In this document: piece by piece, positions 49,174-59,791 of the stretch
Position numbering within the stretch: position 1 is the first letter of the stretch
Layout of the letters: every line of letters starts with the position of its first letter
NCBI RefSeq assembly: GCF_038751955.1
Contig: NZ_JBCEXH010000002.1
Span: forward strand, 248,001 to 312,000
Length of the DNA stretch: 64,000 bases
Direction: 5' to 3'
Source of the DNA: Methanocalculus natronophilus
Lineage (GTDB): Archaea; Halobacteriota; Methanomicrobia; Methanomicrobiales; Methanocorpusculaceae
Program-made: the position numbers and the translations under genes
The notes under the pieces: model-generated
Seen by the model: only the letters and a program-made list of their open reading frames with translations
Told to the model about the DNA's origin: nothing
Databases searched by the model: none

Positions 49174-50433
49174 TTACTTGAAGAGTTCGTTTGCCTGTTC
49201 TTCATTATACCGGGAGATCTTATGCTCGACAAGCCGCTGATCGCTCATGATAACATCCCAGATCCGGTTGGTTGCCGAATCAAACGAGATCTCCTTTGTG
49301 CGTCCATATCTCCCCCTCGATATAACACGTGTTGATATGACACCAAGCATATTTAATTCACTGATGAGATCGGTTACCCGGCGGTGTGTCAGGGTTTCAA
49401 GGGAGAGTTCGCGGGTGATCTCACGGTACAGACGCATCACATCACCGCTTGTAAAGATCTTCTGGTTGATCTTGTGGAGGAGGAGCATCGCATAGAGGAC
49501 CACTTTGCTCTGTGTCGGGAGTGTTGAGATGCATTCGACCATGCTGTCTGTCTCTATCTTCTCCTGGGCAAGCCGGACGTGCCTGTCGGTTACGGAATCC
49601 TCACTTCCGCGATCGGCAAGCTCTCCTGAGACACGGAGGAGATCCAGTGCACGGCGTGCGTCACCATGTTCCTGCGCGGCGAGCGCGGCACAGAGCGGGA
49701 TGACCCCGTCTGCCAGCACCCCGTCTATAAACGCCAGCTCCGCCCGCTGCTGGAGGATATCGACAAGCTGGGGGGCATTGTAGGGAGGGAAGACGAGCTC
49801 CTCCTCGGAGAGGGAGGAGAGGACGCGTGGGTCAAGGAAATCGGTGAACCTGAGATCGTTTGAGATGCCGATGATACAGACCTTTGATCGTTCGAGTTCG
49901 GAGTTTATCCTGGTGAGGTTGTAGAGGGTTTCGTCACCGCTCTTCTTGACGAGTTTATCGATCTCATCAAGAATGATGACAAGGACACCTCCCTCATTCT
50001 CCAGGATATTTTTGAGTTCCGCATAAACCTGATCGGTTGGCCACCCTGTCATGGGGATATGGGTCCTGGTTCGGTCGGAGCTGAGTGCATCCACGTTTTC
50101 CACAAGTTTTGCAATCTGGGCAAGCACCCGGTACTGGGTGTCGATAACCTCACAATTTAAGTGGATAACCCGGCATCGTGTATTCATATGACTGCCGGCA
50201 CGTTCCAGCTCGTAGCCGACATACCGGACAGATGCGGTCTTTCCTGTGCCGGTTTTTCCATAAATCAGGATATTGGAGGGGGTTTCGTTCTGGAGGGAGG
50301 GAGCAAGAACAGCAGCGATCGAATCAATCTGGGGTGCCCGGTGGGGAAGGATTTGGGGGCGATAACTATGCCGAAGAACTTCCCTGTTTTTAAAAACATT
50401 GTTTTTTCCCAGGTATTTTTTAAAAAGACCCAT
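49174..50433 (-). CDS. Orc1/Cdc6 origin-binding AAA+ initiator
   Basis: Archaeal replication initiator of about 419 residues. Walker A is NILIYGKTGTGKTASVRYVG, Walker B VLVIILDEIDKLV, sensor-type segment KVCIIGISNDLRFTDFLDPRVLSSLSEEELVFPPYNAPQLVDIL, then a C-terminal winged helix (about 320-415) that recognises ORB DNA. MGLFKKYLGKNNVFKNREVL at 50433 fits the family; GTG 50457 would add eight residues. It is transcribed away from the ORB-rich region directly upstream, the usual arrangement of an archaeal origin. Confidence 0.95.
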   Translation of the reverse strand: MGLFKKYLGKNNVFKNREVLRHSYRPQILPHRAPQIDSIAAVLAPSLQNETPSNILIYGKTGTGKTASVRYVGYELERAGSHMNTRCRVIHLNCEVIDTQYRVLAQIAKLVENVDALSSDRTRTHIPMTGWPTDQVYAELKNILENEGGVLVIILDEIDKLVKKSGDETLYNLTRINSELERSKVCIIGISNDLRFTDFLDPRVLSSLSEEELVFPPYNAPQLVDILQQRAELAFIDGVLADGVIPLCAALAAQEHGDARRALDLLRVSGELADRGSEDSVTDRHVRLAQEKIETDSMVECISTLPTQSKVVLYAMLLLHKINQKIFTSGDVMRLYREITRELSLETLTHRRVTDLISELNMLGVISTRVISRGRYGRTKEISFDSATNRIWDVIMSDQRLVEHKISRYNEEQANELFK

Positions 50434-50590
50434 TGATTGGACGCTATCATCTGTCACCTTGTATTTCCCCTCCGCATTGCCGCTTGAAACATTCTTCAGC
50501 CAGGTTTTCTGTGATCAGGGATCTCCTCTCTTCAGGTGAGAATAATTGATCCAAAATCCATGACTAGATGACACACTCCATACTATTAAA

Positions 50591-50611
50591 CCCCACTATT
50601 TCCATTGGAAA
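50591..50611 (-). repeat. Origin recognition box 1
   Basis: Minus-strand core TTCCAATGGAAATAGTGGGG. Compared with the archaeal ORB/mini-ORB (TTCCAGTGGAAAC.AA.GGGG) it keeps the dyad and G run with two or three changes. Confidence 0.75.
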
Positions 50612-50668: not shown

Positions 50669-50690
50669 CCCCTTTGTTTCCACTGGAAAC
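50669..50690 (-). repeat. Origin recognition box 2
   Basis: Minus-strand core TTCCAGTGGAAACAAAGGGG, an essentially perfect match to the archaeal ORB consensus. Best copy in the window. Confidence 0.88.
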
Positions 50691-50876: not shown

Positions 50877-50898
50877 CCCCTTTGTTTCTACTGGAGAA
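50877..50898 (-). repeat. Origin recognition box 3
   Basis: Minus-strand core CTCCAGTAGAAACAAAGGGG. The downstream A/G-rich half and G run are intact; the dyad has two changes. It borders the purine-rich tract. Confidence 0.75.
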
Positions 50899-51398: not shown

Positions 51399-51420
51399 AC
51401 CTCCAGTGGAAATAAAGGGG
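51399..51420 (+). repeat. Origin recognition box 4
   Basis: Plus-strand core CTCCAGTGGAAATAAAGGGG. It is inverted relative to ORBs 1-3 and lies on the other side of the AT-rich core, inside a pyrimidine-rich stretch. Confidence 0.82.
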
Positions 51421-51600: not shown

Positions 51601-51621
51601 CCCCCTTATTTCCACTGGAAA
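51601..51621 (-). repeat. Origin recognition box 5
   Basis: Minus-strand core TTCCAGTGGAAATAAGGGGG. Strong match, about 180 nt beyond ORB4 and 60 nt before the 16-bp repeat array. Confidence 0.82.
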
Positions 51622-53300: not shown

Positions 53301-55604
53301 TCAGTCACCAAAAAAGTCCTGGATCTCCTGCTGGCCCTGCTTTCTGCCTCTCCTGGCCTGCACCCGATCACCAGACCTCTCCGGAGAAAGGGCCTTTTCC
53401 GGCCCAGGCTTTCTGCCTCTTCTGCCTGTTTCTTTCGGATCGCTTCTCCTCTCCTGCTGCCTCTCTTCGGGATACCTGGTTCTGCCGTCTGTTTTTTCTG
53501 TACCTTCACGCTCTATCTGGCCGATGATTGCTTCTGCGGTCTTCTGGCCGATGATCCGGCCAATCACCGAAACACCGGCAGCAGCAACAGAGGCCGGGGT
53601 ATCATATCCGCTGTTGAAGAGCTGACGGGCACGGACACGGCCGATTCCCCTGAGCCGGATGAGTGGCAGGAGCTCTTCCTTTATACCATGACGGATCCGG
53701 ATCTCCAGGTTGCTTACCTCACGCAGGAGATCGGGGTTCTCCCGCCGGGTGATCTCCCGCGCCCCATGGACGATCCAGCCGATCCCCTCGACAAGCCCGT
53801 GGATGTCTCCAGGTCCGATTCCAAAGCGCTCAGCAATCATCTCGATTGAGAGTTCATTGATCCAGTCATGGAGGACAAGTGCGGTCTTGATGGCGCAGAC
53901 GATCTCCTCGTACCCAAGCCATGGAATGGCATCTTCGGGCCTCCCGATGAGAAACTCCTCTTCCTGCTCTTCCATGACCACTTCGATGATGTCACGGTCA
54001 GCGGCTCTCAGATAGAGCCTGAACATATCAGGGGTTGCACAGAGGAGATGGAGGAGGCCAAACGGCGTGACGAGATCCCTTTCCTGCAGTGCGTCTGCGA
54101 TCATCACTGCAGACCGCGGGTCAAGATAGAGACGGGATGTGAGACTGCCAAGCTCTGTTCCCTCAACCCTCCCCCCGAGATCGATTATCATCTCCATCTC
54201 CTCGAGATCCCGTATCACCCGGTTGCAGATCCGGTTCAGGTGCTTCAGGTTTGCATGGCGTGCTCCATAGAAACTCCCCTCAAAGAACCCGGAGATGGCA
54301 TCGGTGTCTGTTGCTTCCCCTCCTGTTACAAGAGCAAGTATCCGGGAGAGAAGGGCGGATCGTGATGCGCACTGTGAATCGATCTCTTCTGCGCCAGCTT
54401 CAATGAACTCTTCAAAGAGCTGGTCAACCTGGGTTTTGTTCCGTCCGATAAGGACAGCCTCTCCAAAGGGGTCAAGGCCGGGCCTCCCTGCCCGTCCGGC
54501 CATCTGACGGTATTCCCTGACGGGAATTGGCACCTGCCCCTCTCCGGGGACAAACCTGTGGACGCTGTTGATGACGACCCGGCGTGCGGGGAGGTTTAAG
54601 CCTGCTGCAAGGGTGGGCGTTGAGGCGATCGCCCTGATTGTATTCTCCCTGAACCCCTGCTCCACCAGTCTCCTTGCATCCCGGGAGAGCCCGGCATGAT
54701 GGAAGGCTGCACCGTTTCTGATGCAGTCTCCAAGACTTTGGGCAACCGAGCTCTCATCAGCTTTTTCAATGCTGTCTGCAATATCGTGGAGAGCGGGATT
54801 CTCAAGGCGGAGTGCGGCGGCGATTCGTTTTGCAGCACCTTCGGCATTCCTCCGGGAGGAGACAAAGACGAGTGCCTGGCCGCCGGAATCGATTGTGTCA
54901 AGACAGAGGTTGGTATCGGGATCCTTCTTCTCTGATGGAACAACCAGTTCACACCCATCGGCAAACCGGATCGCGCCACGGAAATAGACCCCTTCCCTGA
55001 GATCGACCGGGCGCCAGTCCGACTCTATCAGTTCCGCATTGAGCCATTTTGCGAGTTCGTTGGGGTTTCCTATGGTTGCGGAGAGGCCGATTACCTGGAT
55101 AGCCGGCTTTCTCTTCCGCATTGTGGTGATCACCATCTCAAGGGTTGCTCCACGGCTCTCGTCACCGATGAGATGAATCTCGTCGATGACAACAAGGCTT
55201 ACCTTCTCTATCCAGCCTGCCCGGTTTCTCAGGAGGCTGTCAACCTTCTCAGAGGTGGCGACGATGATATCGGATCTCCCGAGGATCTCATCTTTCCTGT
55301 CAAAATCACCGGTTGCTATCCCGATTCTGACACCTTTCCCGGAAAACTCCTCGTACTTCTCACTTGCCAGAGCCCTGAGGGGGACGATATAGAGGCATTT
55401 CCCCCCTCTCTTGATCTGGTGGTGCATCGCCATCTCCGCAACAAGCGTCTTGCCACTTGCGGTAGGTATGGAAATCAGGAGGTTTTTCCCCTCAAAGAGC
55501 CCTCTCTCAATACATGCTGCCTGGGGTGGATAGAGTGTGCGGATACCTCTTGCGTAGTACTGACCCACCAGGTCCTCCGGGATCGGCAAACTCTCAAGAG
55601 GCAC
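53301..55604 (-). CDS. hel308: ATP-dependent DNA helicase Hel308 with C-terminal PIP motif
   Basis: Superfamily 2 3'-5' helicase acting on stalled forks. Counting from GTG 55604 (VPLESLPIPEDLVGQYYARGIRTLYPPQA), about 767 residues. Walker A is ISIPTASGKTLVAEMA (about 45-60), motif II DEIHLIGDESRG, motif IV-VI region GLSRDARRLVEQGFRENTIRAIASTPTLAAGLNLPARRVVI and YRQMAGRAGRPGLDPFGEAVLI. A ratchet domain and helix-hairpin-helix segment (LIRLRGIGRVRARQLFNSGYDTPASVA) follow. After the usual end comes a basic, disordered tail finishing in QQEIQDFFGD, a PCNA-interacting peptide. The frame is open to 55655, but the family start and an ORB just upstream favour GTG 55604. Confidence 0.93.
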   Translation of the reverse strand: MPLESLPIPEDLVGQYYARGIRTLYPPQAACIERGLFEGKNLLISIPTASGKTLVAEMAMHHQIKRGGKCLYIVPLRALASEKYEEFSGKGVRIGIATGDFDRKDEILGRSDIIVATSEKVDSLLRNRAGWIEKVSLVVIDEIHLIGDESRGATLEMVITTMRKRKPAIQVIGLSATIGNPNELAKWLNAELIESDWRPVDLREGVYFRGAIRFADGCELVVPSEKKDPDTNLCLDTIDSGGQALVFVSSRRNAEGAAKRIAAALRLENPALHDIADSIEKADESSVAQSLGDCIRNGAAFHHAGLSRDARRLVEQGFRENTIRAIASTPTLAAGLNLPARRVVINSVHRFVPGEGQVPIPVREYRQMAGRAGRPGLDPFGEAVLIGRNKTQVDQLFEEFIEAGAEEIDSQCASRSALLSRILALVTGGEATDTDAISGFFEGSFYGARHANLKHLNRICNRVIRDLEEMEMIIDLGGRVEGTELGSLTSRLYLDPRSAVMIADALQERDLVTPFGLLHLLCATPDMFRLYLRAADRDIIEVVMEEQEEEFLIGRPEDAIPWLGYEEIVCAIKTALVLHDWINELSIEMIAERFGIGPGDIHGLVEGIGWIVHGAREITRRENPDLLREVSNLEIRIRHGIKEELLPLIRLRGIGRVRARQLFNSGYDTPASVAAAGVSVIGRIIGQKTAEAIIGQIEREGTEKTDGRTRYPEERQQERRSDPKETGRRGRKPGPEKALSPERSGDRVQARRGRKQGQQEIQDFFGD

Positions 55605-55612
55605 CCCCGGAA

Positions 55613-55634
55613 CCCCTTTATTTCCATTGGAAAG
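55613..55634 (-). repeat. Origin recognition box 6, upstream of hel308
   Basis: Minus-strand core TTCCAATGGAAATAAAGGGG, a strong ORB match about 4 kb from the origin cluster. It lies 8 bp upstream of the hel308 GTG, between a TATA-like AAAAATAATT (about 55685-55695) and the start codon. Confidence 0.78.
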
Positions 55635-55970
55635 CTCATCCGACACAGCGATCACATCGATACATTCATATCAGGAGCCCTGAATTATTTTTCTCTCCCA
55701 TCCTTCGTCGTTATCTCTCTATTAGCTGGTAAATATGAGGTTTTTTACAATTCAAACCCCAATATGCCAGCTCTCTTTCCTGCATCCGGTAGCACCAATT
55801 GAGGGCACCACTACCCGGACTCCAACTCATGCGATCCCCCATTGCCCTGATCTCCACACTCACTTCCCAATCCGGCTTGTCGAGTACGATCTGCAAAATG
55901 TCTGGAGGCATTCACTCAATCCATGGAAAGGATACCTGGTCTATTCACGGTATCCCGATATGGCTCCTGG
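55635..55970. other. Spacer between the KH-domain gene and hel308
   Basis: About 335 nt containing the probable hel308 promoter (TATA-like AAAAATAATT on the minus strand near 55685-55695). A 66-codon minus-strand frame at 55711-55911 has no recognisable features. Nothing else is seen. Confidence 0.4.
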
Positions 55971-56513
55971 TTAGTAGTAGTAGCCGATCAGATCCTGTTT
56001 CGCCTCTTTCTTCCTCTTGTCGAGGAAGCCAAAGACGCTTGCATGGTCTGCGCCCTCAACAAGCATCTCGATTGCTTTTCGTGACGTCTGCACCGGCTCG
56101 GGAAGCCCGATGATCCCGACAGTCTTTCCATAGATTGATACGGCTGTGCCGGTCATGCTCTCGATCTGATCACGGGCTTTTCCGTCCCTGCCGATGATCC
56201 GCCCGCGGAGCCGGTTCATCTTCTGGGGGGTGTCAGCAACATTTGAGAGATCGAGGATATCAAGGATGATATCTTCATCTTCAAAGAGCCGGAATGCCCT
56301 CTCTGGTGAAAAACCTCTTCCGAGAGCCCGTATTACCTCGGTTGCCCTGAGCACGCCGACTGCGTCCTCCCCGTCAACCGTAACCACGCCTTCGGCGCTG
56401 TCTACCTGTATCTCAGCACCCGACTGCTCTTCAATAGCCTTCCGGGTTGCGCCACCTTTTCCAATGATGACCCCGATACGATCGGCAGCCACTTTCAGTT
56501 CCTGGATAGTCAT
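55971..56513 (-). CDS. KH-domain rRNA-processing protein (archaeal Dim2/Pno1-like)
   Basis: About 180 residues from MTIQELKVAADRIGVIIGKGGATRKAIEEQSGAEIQVD. Two KH domains are visible by their GxxG loops: VIIGKGGATRKAIEE (about 14-28) and RGRIIGRDGKARDQIESMTGTAVSIYGKTVGIIG (about 104-138). Dim2/Pno1 homologues act in small-subunit rRNA maturation and assembly. The gene lies 21 nt after rio1, whose product works in the same process; the pair is a conserved archaeal arrangement. The frame also opens at 56528. Confidence 0.9.
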   Translation of the reverse strand: MTIQELKVAADRIGVIIGKGGATRKAIEEQSGAEIQVDSAEGVVTVDGEDAVGVLRATEVIRALGRGFSPERAFRLFEDEDIILDILDLSNVADTPQKMNRLRGRIIGRDGKARDQIESMTGTAVSIYGKTVGIIGLPEPVQTSRKAIEMLVEGADHASVFGFLDKRKKEAKQDLIGYYY

Positions 56514-57347: not shown

Positions 57348-58304
57348 TTATCCCCGTTTCGTGCTCATAATAAACTCGTATGCTGGTTGGAGCACCTCGG
57401 CAAGTCCTTCTGCACAGGCGTTCTTTGCATCCATTGGATGGATCTCTCCTGCTGCAAATGCCGCCTCAAATGCCTCCATGGAATCGAACCCGACGTCGCC
57501 ACCGTATTTTTCAGGTCTTTTGATCTCGATTCTTCCAAGACGCGGGAAGATATGGTGTGTAAAGATCTCTATGATCGGGTTCTCGTGGATCTCGGGCGGA
57601 CAGTAGGCCTTTTTGATCTTCTTCCTGATCTCCTCCTCGGAATCAGCAACAGATATGACGTTTCCGGCTGACGACGCCATCTTCTTCCCGTCCAGGCCCT
57701 GGATGATCGGGGTGTGGATGCAGACGGGCGGTTTCTTATCGATTGCCCCGAGATGTTCGCGGGCGAGCATATGGATCTTCCGCTGGTCGATCCCCCCGAC
57801 GGCGGCATCGACATTGAGTGCTGCAATATCAACCATCTGCATGATCGGGTAGACCATCTGTGACACGGTTGGTGCCTCCATTGCCCGGCCAACCTCATCC
57901 ATGCTCCGTTTTGCCCGGTTCAGTGTCACCTGCTGGGAGAGTTCGAGGACATCCAGCTGATAGTCGGGGTTCAGCTGGAGATCGGTCCCGATCACAAATT
58001 CCGCTCCCTTGAGCCCGACTGCCTCAATACAGGCCCTGTTATATTCTGCAAGCTCCCGGACCTCTTCCAGTGTTCCTTTCCGGTTGAGGAACGCGTGGAG
58101 ATCGGCGAGGAGAACGACCACGTGAAAACCCGCCTCTTTCATATCGATGAGTTTGTTGATGGTGACGAGATGGCCGAGATGGATCTCTCCTGACGGTTCG
58201 TATCCTGCATAGACGGTTTTTTTCTGCTGGGAGAGGGTCGTGCGAAGCTCTTCTTCCGTGATGATTTCCACGGTATTCCGCGCCACGAGATCAAATGGAT
58301 CCAT
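57348..58304 (-). CDS. tyrS: Tyrosyl-tRNA synthetase
   Basis: Class I aminoacyl-tRNA synthetase, archaeal/eukaryal short form of 318 residues. Seen: EELRTTLSQQKKTVYAGYEPSGEIHLGHLVTINKLIDM with the HIGH-type HLGH, VVLLADLHAFLNRKG, YPIMQMVDIAALNVDAAVGGIDQRKIHMLAREHL and the KMSKS-type GKKMASSAGN. First gene of the tyrS-rio1-KH operon; its start overlaps the divergent open frame at 58295 but not the likely ATPase start. Confidence 0.95.
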   Translation of the reverse strand: MDPFDLVARNTVEIITEEELRTTLSQQKKTVYAGYEPSGEIHLGHLVTINKLIDMKEAGFHVVVLLADLHAFLNRKGTLEEVRELAEYNRACIEAVGLKGAEFVIGTDLQLNPDYQLDVLELSQQVTLNRAKRSMDEVGRAMEAPTVSQMVYPIMQMVDIAALNVDAAVGGIDQRKIHMLAREHLGAIDKKPPVCIHTPIIQGLDGKKMASSAGNVISVADSEEEIRKKIKKAYCPPEIHENPIIEIFTHHIFPRLGRIEIKRPEKYGGDVGFDSMEAFEAAFAAGEIHPMDAKNACAEGLAEVLQPAYEFIMSTKRG

Positions 58305-58525
58305 GGCATACTATTTGGCAACCTGAGGTGTTTAATGTGTGGGAAAAACGCGCCCCCGGAATGGCTGAACCACGAAGCCCGGGTTCCGATCCGGCAACAC
58401 CTCTCTCTTTATTTCGGTTGGTGCCAATTGGAAGCGCCAATCGGAGGCGGTATGAGAGAGCGGCAGTACACTTGCCAGAGGGCATTCACTCACATGCTGC
58501 GGGGCTTGCAGCTATTGCCCGGATA

Positions 58526-59791
58526 ATGGAAGAAGAAGGTATCGTGGAAGAAGAAGCCATCGTGAAAGAAGAAGCCTGCAGGAGCGTGAACGAAACCAAC
58601 CGGGTGGATACCTGGGAAAAAGCCAAAAATCCCAACGAGCCGCCTGCCTGGACAGAAACAGGGGAGAACCCCTTCAATTTTTGCGATCCCGTCTCAGACG
58701 ACCGGTTTATCAATCGAAAAGAGGAGCTCTTTCGGCTGAAATCATATCTTCGAAACGGCAGAGACGTTCTCCTCGTCTCGCCCGGCGGGTATGGCAAGAC
58801 GTCCCTTATCCTCCGTGCATTGCGGGATCTTGACGGATCTGTGATCGGGATTCTTCCTGACGCAGCTGCGCTTCGCTCCCCTGCTGATCTCGCAACTGCC
58901 CTTTCCAGGAGCAGCAGCCCTCGCTCATCCCTCTCCAGGCTGCGATCCACCATACAAAGGCTTCTCCTTGGAATAGAACTGAAGATAACCATTGAAACGG
59001 ATCCTGCAATTACTATCTCTCCTGTATATGCCGGATCTGCAGAAACCTGGAAGACTGCCCTTTCTCTCCCGGTTCGACTTGCCAGGGAGAAGAACTGCAG
59101 GGTTGTTCTTGTCTTTGAACACTTTGCCCTGGCCGCTGGTACTGTTTTGCTTCAGTATCAGCTGAAAGAAGCATTGTATCATCTGAAAGAGGCATTTGGT
59201 GAGAAAAGCAATGTCTCCTGCTGCTTTCTCCTGGACAGGCCACATATGATCTCCCGTCTCTTCGGCTCCCCTTCAGGCCCGCTCTCTGCATCCGCTGCCC
59301 TTCTCTCCCTCCCCCCTCTTCCAATGGAGGCAACAGCACAGGCAATCGCGAGAATGTTTTGGGAAAGCGGTATCAGAACAGCTCCCGGTCTCCCTCAGAC
59401 GATCTGCGAAAGGGTGAGGGGCCATCCCCGCTCTCTCATGCGCATCTGCTATGAACTCTGGCAGCGGGGGTCTTCAGGGATCACTCCTGATGAGGATGAT
59501 CTCGATGATATTCTCAGGGGGCTGGTTGCCGAGGCGGATCTCCTGTACTCGTCTCTCTACTGGTCTCTCCCAACAAACCAGCGAAAGGTTCTCCTTGCGG
59601 TAGCTGCTGGAGAGGAGAAACTCTATGCCGGAGCATGTATGCGGCGATTTCATCTTGCATCGGCTGGCAGTGTCCATGCCGGTCTCCGCGGCCTTCATGC
59701 GGCAGGCCTGGTCTGGAGGGCCGGGTCGGGATACTGGATCCCGGAGACGCTCTTTCTCCTCTGGATCAGGGAAAGAAATGGCTTGGAATGA
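58526..59791 (+). CDS. STAND-like ATPase with winged-helix end
   Basis: About 421 residues from ATG 58526. It begins with acidic quasi-repeats (EEEGIVEEEAIVKEEA), then NPFNFCDPVSDDRFINRKEELFRLKSYLRNGRDVLLVSPGGYGKTSLILRALRDL. This is the archaeal ATPase layout, with Walker A SPGGYGKTS (about 85-93). The expected Walker B is VVLVFEHFALA (about 193-203), with Glu-His in place of Asp-Glu. A C-terminal helical/winged-helix part (about 345-421) ends WRAGSGYWIPETLFLLWIRERNG. Such ATPases are used in signalling or defence; no partner gene is adjacent. The 200 nt between tyrS and this ATG hold no other gene. Confidence 0.75.
   Translation: MEEEGIVEEEAIVKEEACRSVNETNRVDTWEKAKNPNEPPAWTETGENPFNFCDPVSDDRFINRKEELFRLKSYLRNGRDVLLVSPGGYGKTSLILRALRDLDGSVIGILPDAAALRSPADLATALSRSSSPRSSLSRLRSTIQRLLLGIELKITIETDPAITISPVYAGSAETWKTALSLPVRLAREKNCRVVLVFEHFALAAGTVLLQYQLKEALYHLKEAFGEKSNVSCCFLLDRPHMISRLFGSPSGPLSASAALLSLPPLPMEATAQAIARMFWESGIRTAPGLPQTICERVRGHPRSLMRICYELWQRGSSGITPDEDDLDDILRGLVAEADLLYSSLYWSLPTNQRKVLLAVAAGEEKLYAGACMRRFHLASAGSVHAGLRGLHAAGLVWRAGSGYWIPETLFLLWIRERNGLE

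Follow-up and report, generated by a model that had tools for sequence, protein, structure and literature searches.

A conserved ORB at the 5' end of hel308, a probable Orc1/Cdc6 operator in Methanocalculus and related methanogens

Within the stretch of Methanocalculus natronophilus DNA analysed (64,000 nucleotides, referred to here as the window), a full archaeal origin recognition box (ORB), as judged by its sequence, is located at the 5' end of hel308, a gene for an Hjm-type, fork-repair DNA helicase. The motif is conserved and specific, and it is probable that it represents a conserved operator of hel308 recognized by Orc1/Cdc6. The sequence TTCCAATGGAAATAAAGGGG shows no mismatches to the ORB consensus TTCCANTGGAAANNAAGGGG, with an intact dyad core (TTCCANTGGAAA) followed on its 3' side by the G-string AAAGGGG, which the origin copies also have. 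The gap between the motif and the GTG at 55604–55602 is eight bases, which confirms an earlier sequence-only reading which had described a strong minus-strand ORB 8 bp upstream of this codon. The flanking genes were also identified correctly in that reading as hel308 and orc1/cdc6 (NCBIfam NF002654 and NF001625; see Table 1).

Table 1. Features of the window discussed in the text (positions are those of the window).
Feature	Position	Strand	Remarks
ORB at hel308 5' end	55613..55632	minus	TTCCAATGGAAATAAAGGGG, followed by TT at 55612-55611
hel308 (Hjm-type DNA helicase)	53301..55646	minus	NCBIfam NF002654, 959 bits against a cutoff of 887; start predicted from eight Methanocalculus sequences
orc1/cdc6 initiator gene (canonical Orc1-1 type)	49174..50457	minus	NCBIfam NF001625, 587 bits
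Origin ORB	50591..50610	minus	2 mismatches; window scan and genome search
Origin ORB	50669..50688	minus	0 mismatches; window scan and genome search
Degenerate origin ORB	50877..50896	minus	2 mismatches; window scan
Origin ORB	51401..51420	plus	1 mismatch; window scan and genome search
Origin ORB	51601..51620	minus	1 mismatch; window scan and genome search
KH-domain RNA-processing gene	55971..56513	minus	NCBIfam NF010332; upstream of hel308, same strand
GTG named as start in the earlier reading	55602..55604	minus	In frame; no start codon from motif to LPIP in L013 and L016
Most upstream in-frame GTG of the hel308 ORF	55653..55655	minus	Out of frame in two relatives

When the window was scanned at up to 2 mismatches to the consensus, only the hel308 ORB and five origin sites were detected, the latter all lying between orc1/cdc6 and the next gene. 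In shuffled window sequence, 0.03 sites had exactly 2 mismatches, and no site had 0 or 1. When the 20-mer was used to search the complete genome (2.0 Mb) and up to 3 mismatches were allowed, only the hel308 site and four origin sites were returned, all within 2 mismatches. The hel308 ORB does not lie in the origin, flanking the AT-rich unwinding region beside orc1/cdc6; the nearest origin ORB is approximately 4 kb away. This is the distance to the origin given in the sequence-only reading, although the emphasis placed on it was misdirected, as the site tracks hel308 and not the origin. The KH-domain gene upstream of hel308 is a conserved neighbor of hel308 in most genera. It should also be noted that a 498-amino acid ORF (58295–59791, plus strand), which contains a P-loop (GGYGKTS) and matches no NCBIfam model, adjoins a tRNA-ligase-like gene, the identity of the latter being read from its sequence only.

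To determine its distribution, the 5' regions of hel308 were compared at 106 loci, representatives of 31 genera of the order (which we take to be Methanomicrobiales), a locus being counted as positive when ANTGGAANNNAAGGGG, which comprises the right half and the G-string, matched with no more than 3 mismatches. The element was found at 95 of the 106 loci and in 25 of the 31 genera, including all eight Methanocalculus sequences and 23 of 24 loci of the sister genus in the family, presumably Methanocorpusculum. The suggestion that hel308 promoters of related methanogens be checked for ORBs is thereby answered, the motif occurring in the same place. A family-wide pattern search likewise showed an ORB 3.5–9 kb from the origin group in successive genomes, which the hel308 coordinates place at the hel308 start. 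The element is missing or decayed at hel308 in G025, G034, G039, G047, G049, G069, G113, G146, G154, G158, and G161. Six sampled genera are without it, so the site is not essential; its loss correlates only partially with a short gap between the KH-domain gene and hel308. Elsewhere in the phylum, 40 regions upstream of hel308 were examined in other families, and every match in them had 5 or more mismatches.

Specificity was assessed by a census of the exact core ANTGGAANNNAAGGGGT in 26 near-complete genomes. It occurs 91 times, with 57 occurrences at origins (within 6 kb of orc1), 21 at hel308 and 13 elsewhere. One exact core lies within 120 bp of the hel308 start in 21 of the 26 genomes, and 10 of the 12 genera in this census possess the exact hel308 site. 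With the 13 other sites as background, the chance of one falling in such a 240 bp window is approximately 5e-5 per genome, though a formal binomial value is not to be read as a probability, the genomes being related. A chance match was ruled out by this genome-wide specificity together with the conservation. As for further conserved targets, none of the 13 exact sites left over in the 26 genomes recurs across genera; recurrence is seen only within a genus. Exact ORB-like sites away from both the origin and hel308, each common to two genomes of a genus, were noted in g13 (L170 1241 and L171 1197) and in g6 (L166 1183 and L167 1200), one example lying downstream of a gene whose product starts MRPVFVSG. 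These are possible genus-specific Orc1 sites.

In most genera outside the Methanocalculus family and the Methanoculleus-like genus g6, a second element was found, namely the dyad TTTCCANTGGA in inverted orientation. It lies 64–67 bp upstream of the ORB, with at most 1 mismatch, in 32 loci. This spacing is unchanged where the pair sits approximately 13–50 bp further from the start codon (g13, g19, and g30), so that dyad and ORB shift together. Between them is an A+T-rich, TATA-like peak 29–22 bp before the ORB, reading TTTATAAA in the clearest cases and weak in Methanocalculus and g6. The ORB of most genera is thus approximately 25 bp downstream of a TATA-like box. Archaeal transcription starts at a usual distance after the TATA box, which would put the start at the ORB's left boundary in most genera. 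The element therefore overlaps a putative core promoter at a conserved geometry. The sequence-only reading had placed the ORB between promoter and start codon; this holds for most genera, where it lies between the TATA-like box and the start codon, but not for Methanocalculus, where it is probably inside the coding sequence.

The hel308 sites also differ from those of the origins in their left half. In the two-element families, the half-site TTCC is intact in three of 37 hel308 sites versus 80 of 86 origin sites, indicating that a distinct form of the ORB is maintained at hel308. In the Methanocalculus family and in genus g8, the left half is complete and the upstream dyad is missing, and here one full-strength site seems to replace two weakened ones. 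Exceptions to this split are g19, which has both, and g6 and g25, which have neither.

The coding status of the motif in Methanocalculus was examined with the eight available sequences, in all of which the hel308 reading frame continues uninterrupted across the ORB. A GTG at 55646–55644 is common to all eight, with an in-frame TGA directly upstream of it in L016 and L017. In L013 and L016, no start codon is present between the motif and the conserved LPIP residues, where Hel308 begins in other genera. The most upstream in-frame GTG (55655) is an unlikely start because it is out of frame in two relatives. The start in Methanocalculus is probably GTG 55646, approximately 15 codons upstream of that of the sister genus, with the ORB among the extra codons (55613–55646). 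The sequence-only reading had taken the motif to lie outside the coding sequence if GTG 55604 is the start; this does not hold, as the motif is very probably coding. It had further held that translation from 55655, making the motif coding, would count against a regulatory role. The motif does appear to be coding, by way of GTG 55646 instead, but the role is not thereby refuted, given the conservation at the DNA level described below.

In Methanocalculus, the ORB encodes S(N/S)GN(K/E)GV near the N-terminus of Hel308. All seven third codon positions inside it are invariant among the eight sequences, versus 42 of 224 in the subsequent codons, which shows that selection acts on the DNA. No fully invariant window of six codons was found among the codons after the ORB. 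Variation within the ORB codons is confined to the dyad centre and a single base preceding the G-string, and these positions vary among the origin ORBs as well. In the sister genus, as in most others, this element lies outside the coding sequence. It therefore appears that an operator-like DNA element was absorbed into the N-terminus of Hel308 in Methanocalculus, which would be a case of a DNA operator turned coding sequence with its synonymous sites frozen.

The candidate binder of the ORB is the product of the orc1/cdc6 gene of the window, canonical by sequence. Its closest solved structures are 2qby_A and 2v1u_A, which we take to be Saccharolobus Orc1-1 and Aeropyrum Orc1, respectively, and the winged-helix segment RGRYGRTKE is kept, so that ORB recognition is expected. 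At the opposite end of hel308, the C-terminus of the protein (53301–53360, ending QQEIQDFFGD) carries a PIP-box-like peptide, Q-x-x-I-x-x-F-F. Similar Hel308 tails (QSTLFRFG or QATLFDFG) are found in many other genera of the order, which suggests binding to the sliding clamp.

The proximity of hel308 to the origin raises the possibility that the site belongs to the origin as a distal, outlying ORB which aids initiation and overlaps hel308 only by adjacency. In most of the 26 genomes, hel308 is indeed 4–11 kb from orc1, and in many genera another origin-side ORB group lies approximately 2 kb downstream of orc1. However, in genus g18 (five genomes), G065, G132, and G067, hel308 is approximately 20–45 kb from orc1 and on the opposite strand, and in all of these the ORB and dyad are still present at the gene with 0–2 core mismatches, the origin ORBs remaining beside orc1 (shown for g18). 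Conversely, the hel308 ORB was lost in genomes where hel308 still abuts the origin, e.g., G034, G039, G113, G146, and G158. The position of the site is also fixed to the hel308 start and the second dyad, not to the origin. Retention at distant hel308 genes and loss beside retained origins argue against an origin part and were the main grounds on which an origin fragment was ruled out, leaving this reading with a low probability; a promoter operator is favored over it. Slightly less improbable, though still unlikely, is that the operator is read by another protein, either a distant Orc1 paralog acting as transcription factor or an unrelated regulator of the TCCANTGGA dyad. The Methanocalculus genome encodes two distant Orc1 paralogs, either of which could be the binder instead, and the hel308 sites of the two-element families consistently lack the left half-site kept in the origins. 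There is also a precedent in Saccharolobus Orc1-2, a known DNA-damage transcription regulator (PMC9738581). Against this, the right half and G-string at hel308 equal those of the origin ORBs, and the known Orc1-2 motif, ANTTTC, differs.

It is very improbable that the hel308 site serves as a sink that lowers free Orc1 in the manner of Haloarcula hispanica oriC2D or E. coli datA. Titration of Cdc6 by ORBs located outside the origin is possible in Haloarcula (PMC3936714), but hel308 has a single ORB instead of a cluster (11 ORBs in oriC2D), and that ORB is locked to the promoter geometry. The least probable reading of all is conservation purely as protein-coding sequence or purely as a ribosome-binding or RNA element. 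The motif does encode a peptide in frame in Methanocalculus, and in many genera the G-string lies approximately 5 bp before the ATG. Conservation for coding only was ruled out by the invariance of third codon positions where the motif is coding and by the non-coding orthologs in the sister genus and most others. A ribosome-binding or RNA element was ruled out by the variable distance to the ATG (approximately 4 to 55 bp), the position of the partner dyad upstream of the TATA-like box and a search of Rfam, which gave no match.

A separate observation concerns the ORB group approximately 2 kb downstream of orc1, which was located in several genera (L174–L179 and L182; e.g., G062:C1:1961703-1961912 and G091:C1:1198273-1198490). 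It follows genes for an AsnC-type regulator and an aminotransferase and precedes purA where visible (names read from sequence), its position not being fixed to the purA start. The group resembles Haloarcula oriC2D and, by analogy, may titrate the initiator. No such site was detected in the 64-kb window at up to 2 mismatches.

Returning to the proposed Orc1/Cdc6 operator, its ancestral form is envisaged as the inverted dyad approximately 65 bp upstream and an ORB of right half plus G-string, together flanking the TATA box, with the ORB covering the transcription start. This pair would have been reduced to one full-strength ORB in Methanocalculus, Methanocorpusculum and one further genus. Initiator bound on the transcription start would most likely block RNA polymerase; through the upstream dyad, binding could in addition be cooperative or the DNA bent across the TATA box. 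Hel308 output would then track the amount of ATP-bound free initiator, with more helicase made once depletion or remodelling of the initiator sets in, be it after firing or during fork stress. The sign of regulation, activation or repression, is not fixed by sequence alone. As a protein on the transcription start should block the polymerase, repression, relieved when active initiator falls, is slightly favored, given Orc1 binding. Orc1 as the binder, the TATA box and start site, repression over activation and the signal are what we infer. The chances are about even for the fuller proposal, in which the initiator itself, with no dedicated paralog, controls hel308 across the order through two weakened ORB halves flanking the TATA box, the operator having been absorbed into the N-terminus in Methanocalculus. 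If this is true, the state of initiation would be wired directly to the capacity for fork rescue. With an ORB retained at a single repair gene in 25 genera and present there in 21 of the 26 near-complete genomes, a direct link from initiator to repair would become testable.

In bacteria, DnaA boxes in promoters, as in the autoregulation of dnaA, make the initiator a regulator of transcription, and datA of E. coli is a dense cluster of initiator sites that regulates initiation. The hel308 ORB resembles the former in having predicted initiator sites placed in a promoter, although the DnaA binding domain and motif are unrelated and the present case is from the domain Archaea. With datA and oriC2D it shares only the location of an initiator site outside the core origin; those are dense clusters regulating initiation, whereas hel308 in Methanocalculus has one promoter-locked site. 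In Haloarcula hispanica, oriC2D is an ORB cluster which restrains its origin, and possible transcriptional roles for Cdc6A were also proposed (PMC3936714). ORBs have also been noted inside the PolD DP1 gene of Thermococcales (PMC2643942). No report of an ORB at hel308 was found in the literature searched, subscription journals being mostly outside its coverage. In that literature, the role described for archaeal Orc1 initiators is at origins, and the sole demonstration of transcriptional control concerns the non-initiator paralog of Saccharolobus. This paralog, Orc1-2 of Saccharolobus islandicus, regulates DNA-damage-responsive genes through the DDRE motif ANTTTC (PMC9738581). The likeness to hel308 lies in an Orc1-family protein, here a candidate, acting as transcription factor at promoters of DNA-damage-type genes. 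However, Orc1-2 comes from a different phylum and is a dedicated non-initiator paralog with a short non-ORB motif and many targets. The order-wide consensus at hel308 is the ORB and not the ANTTTC hexanucleotide of that regulon; the motif is the origin's own, and hel308 is the one conserved non-origin target found. Like an archaeal origin ORB, the hel308 ORB has the dyad and G-string and matches the consensus of the origin ORBs of the same genome. It differs from these in lying at the promoter or start of a gene instead of beside an AT-rich unwinding element, and, in most genera, in its weakened left half-site and its pairing with a second dyad approximately 65 bp away. From these comparisons we infer that the hel308 ORB, with its putative function, is a variant of initiator-controlled promoters and not a new kind of system.
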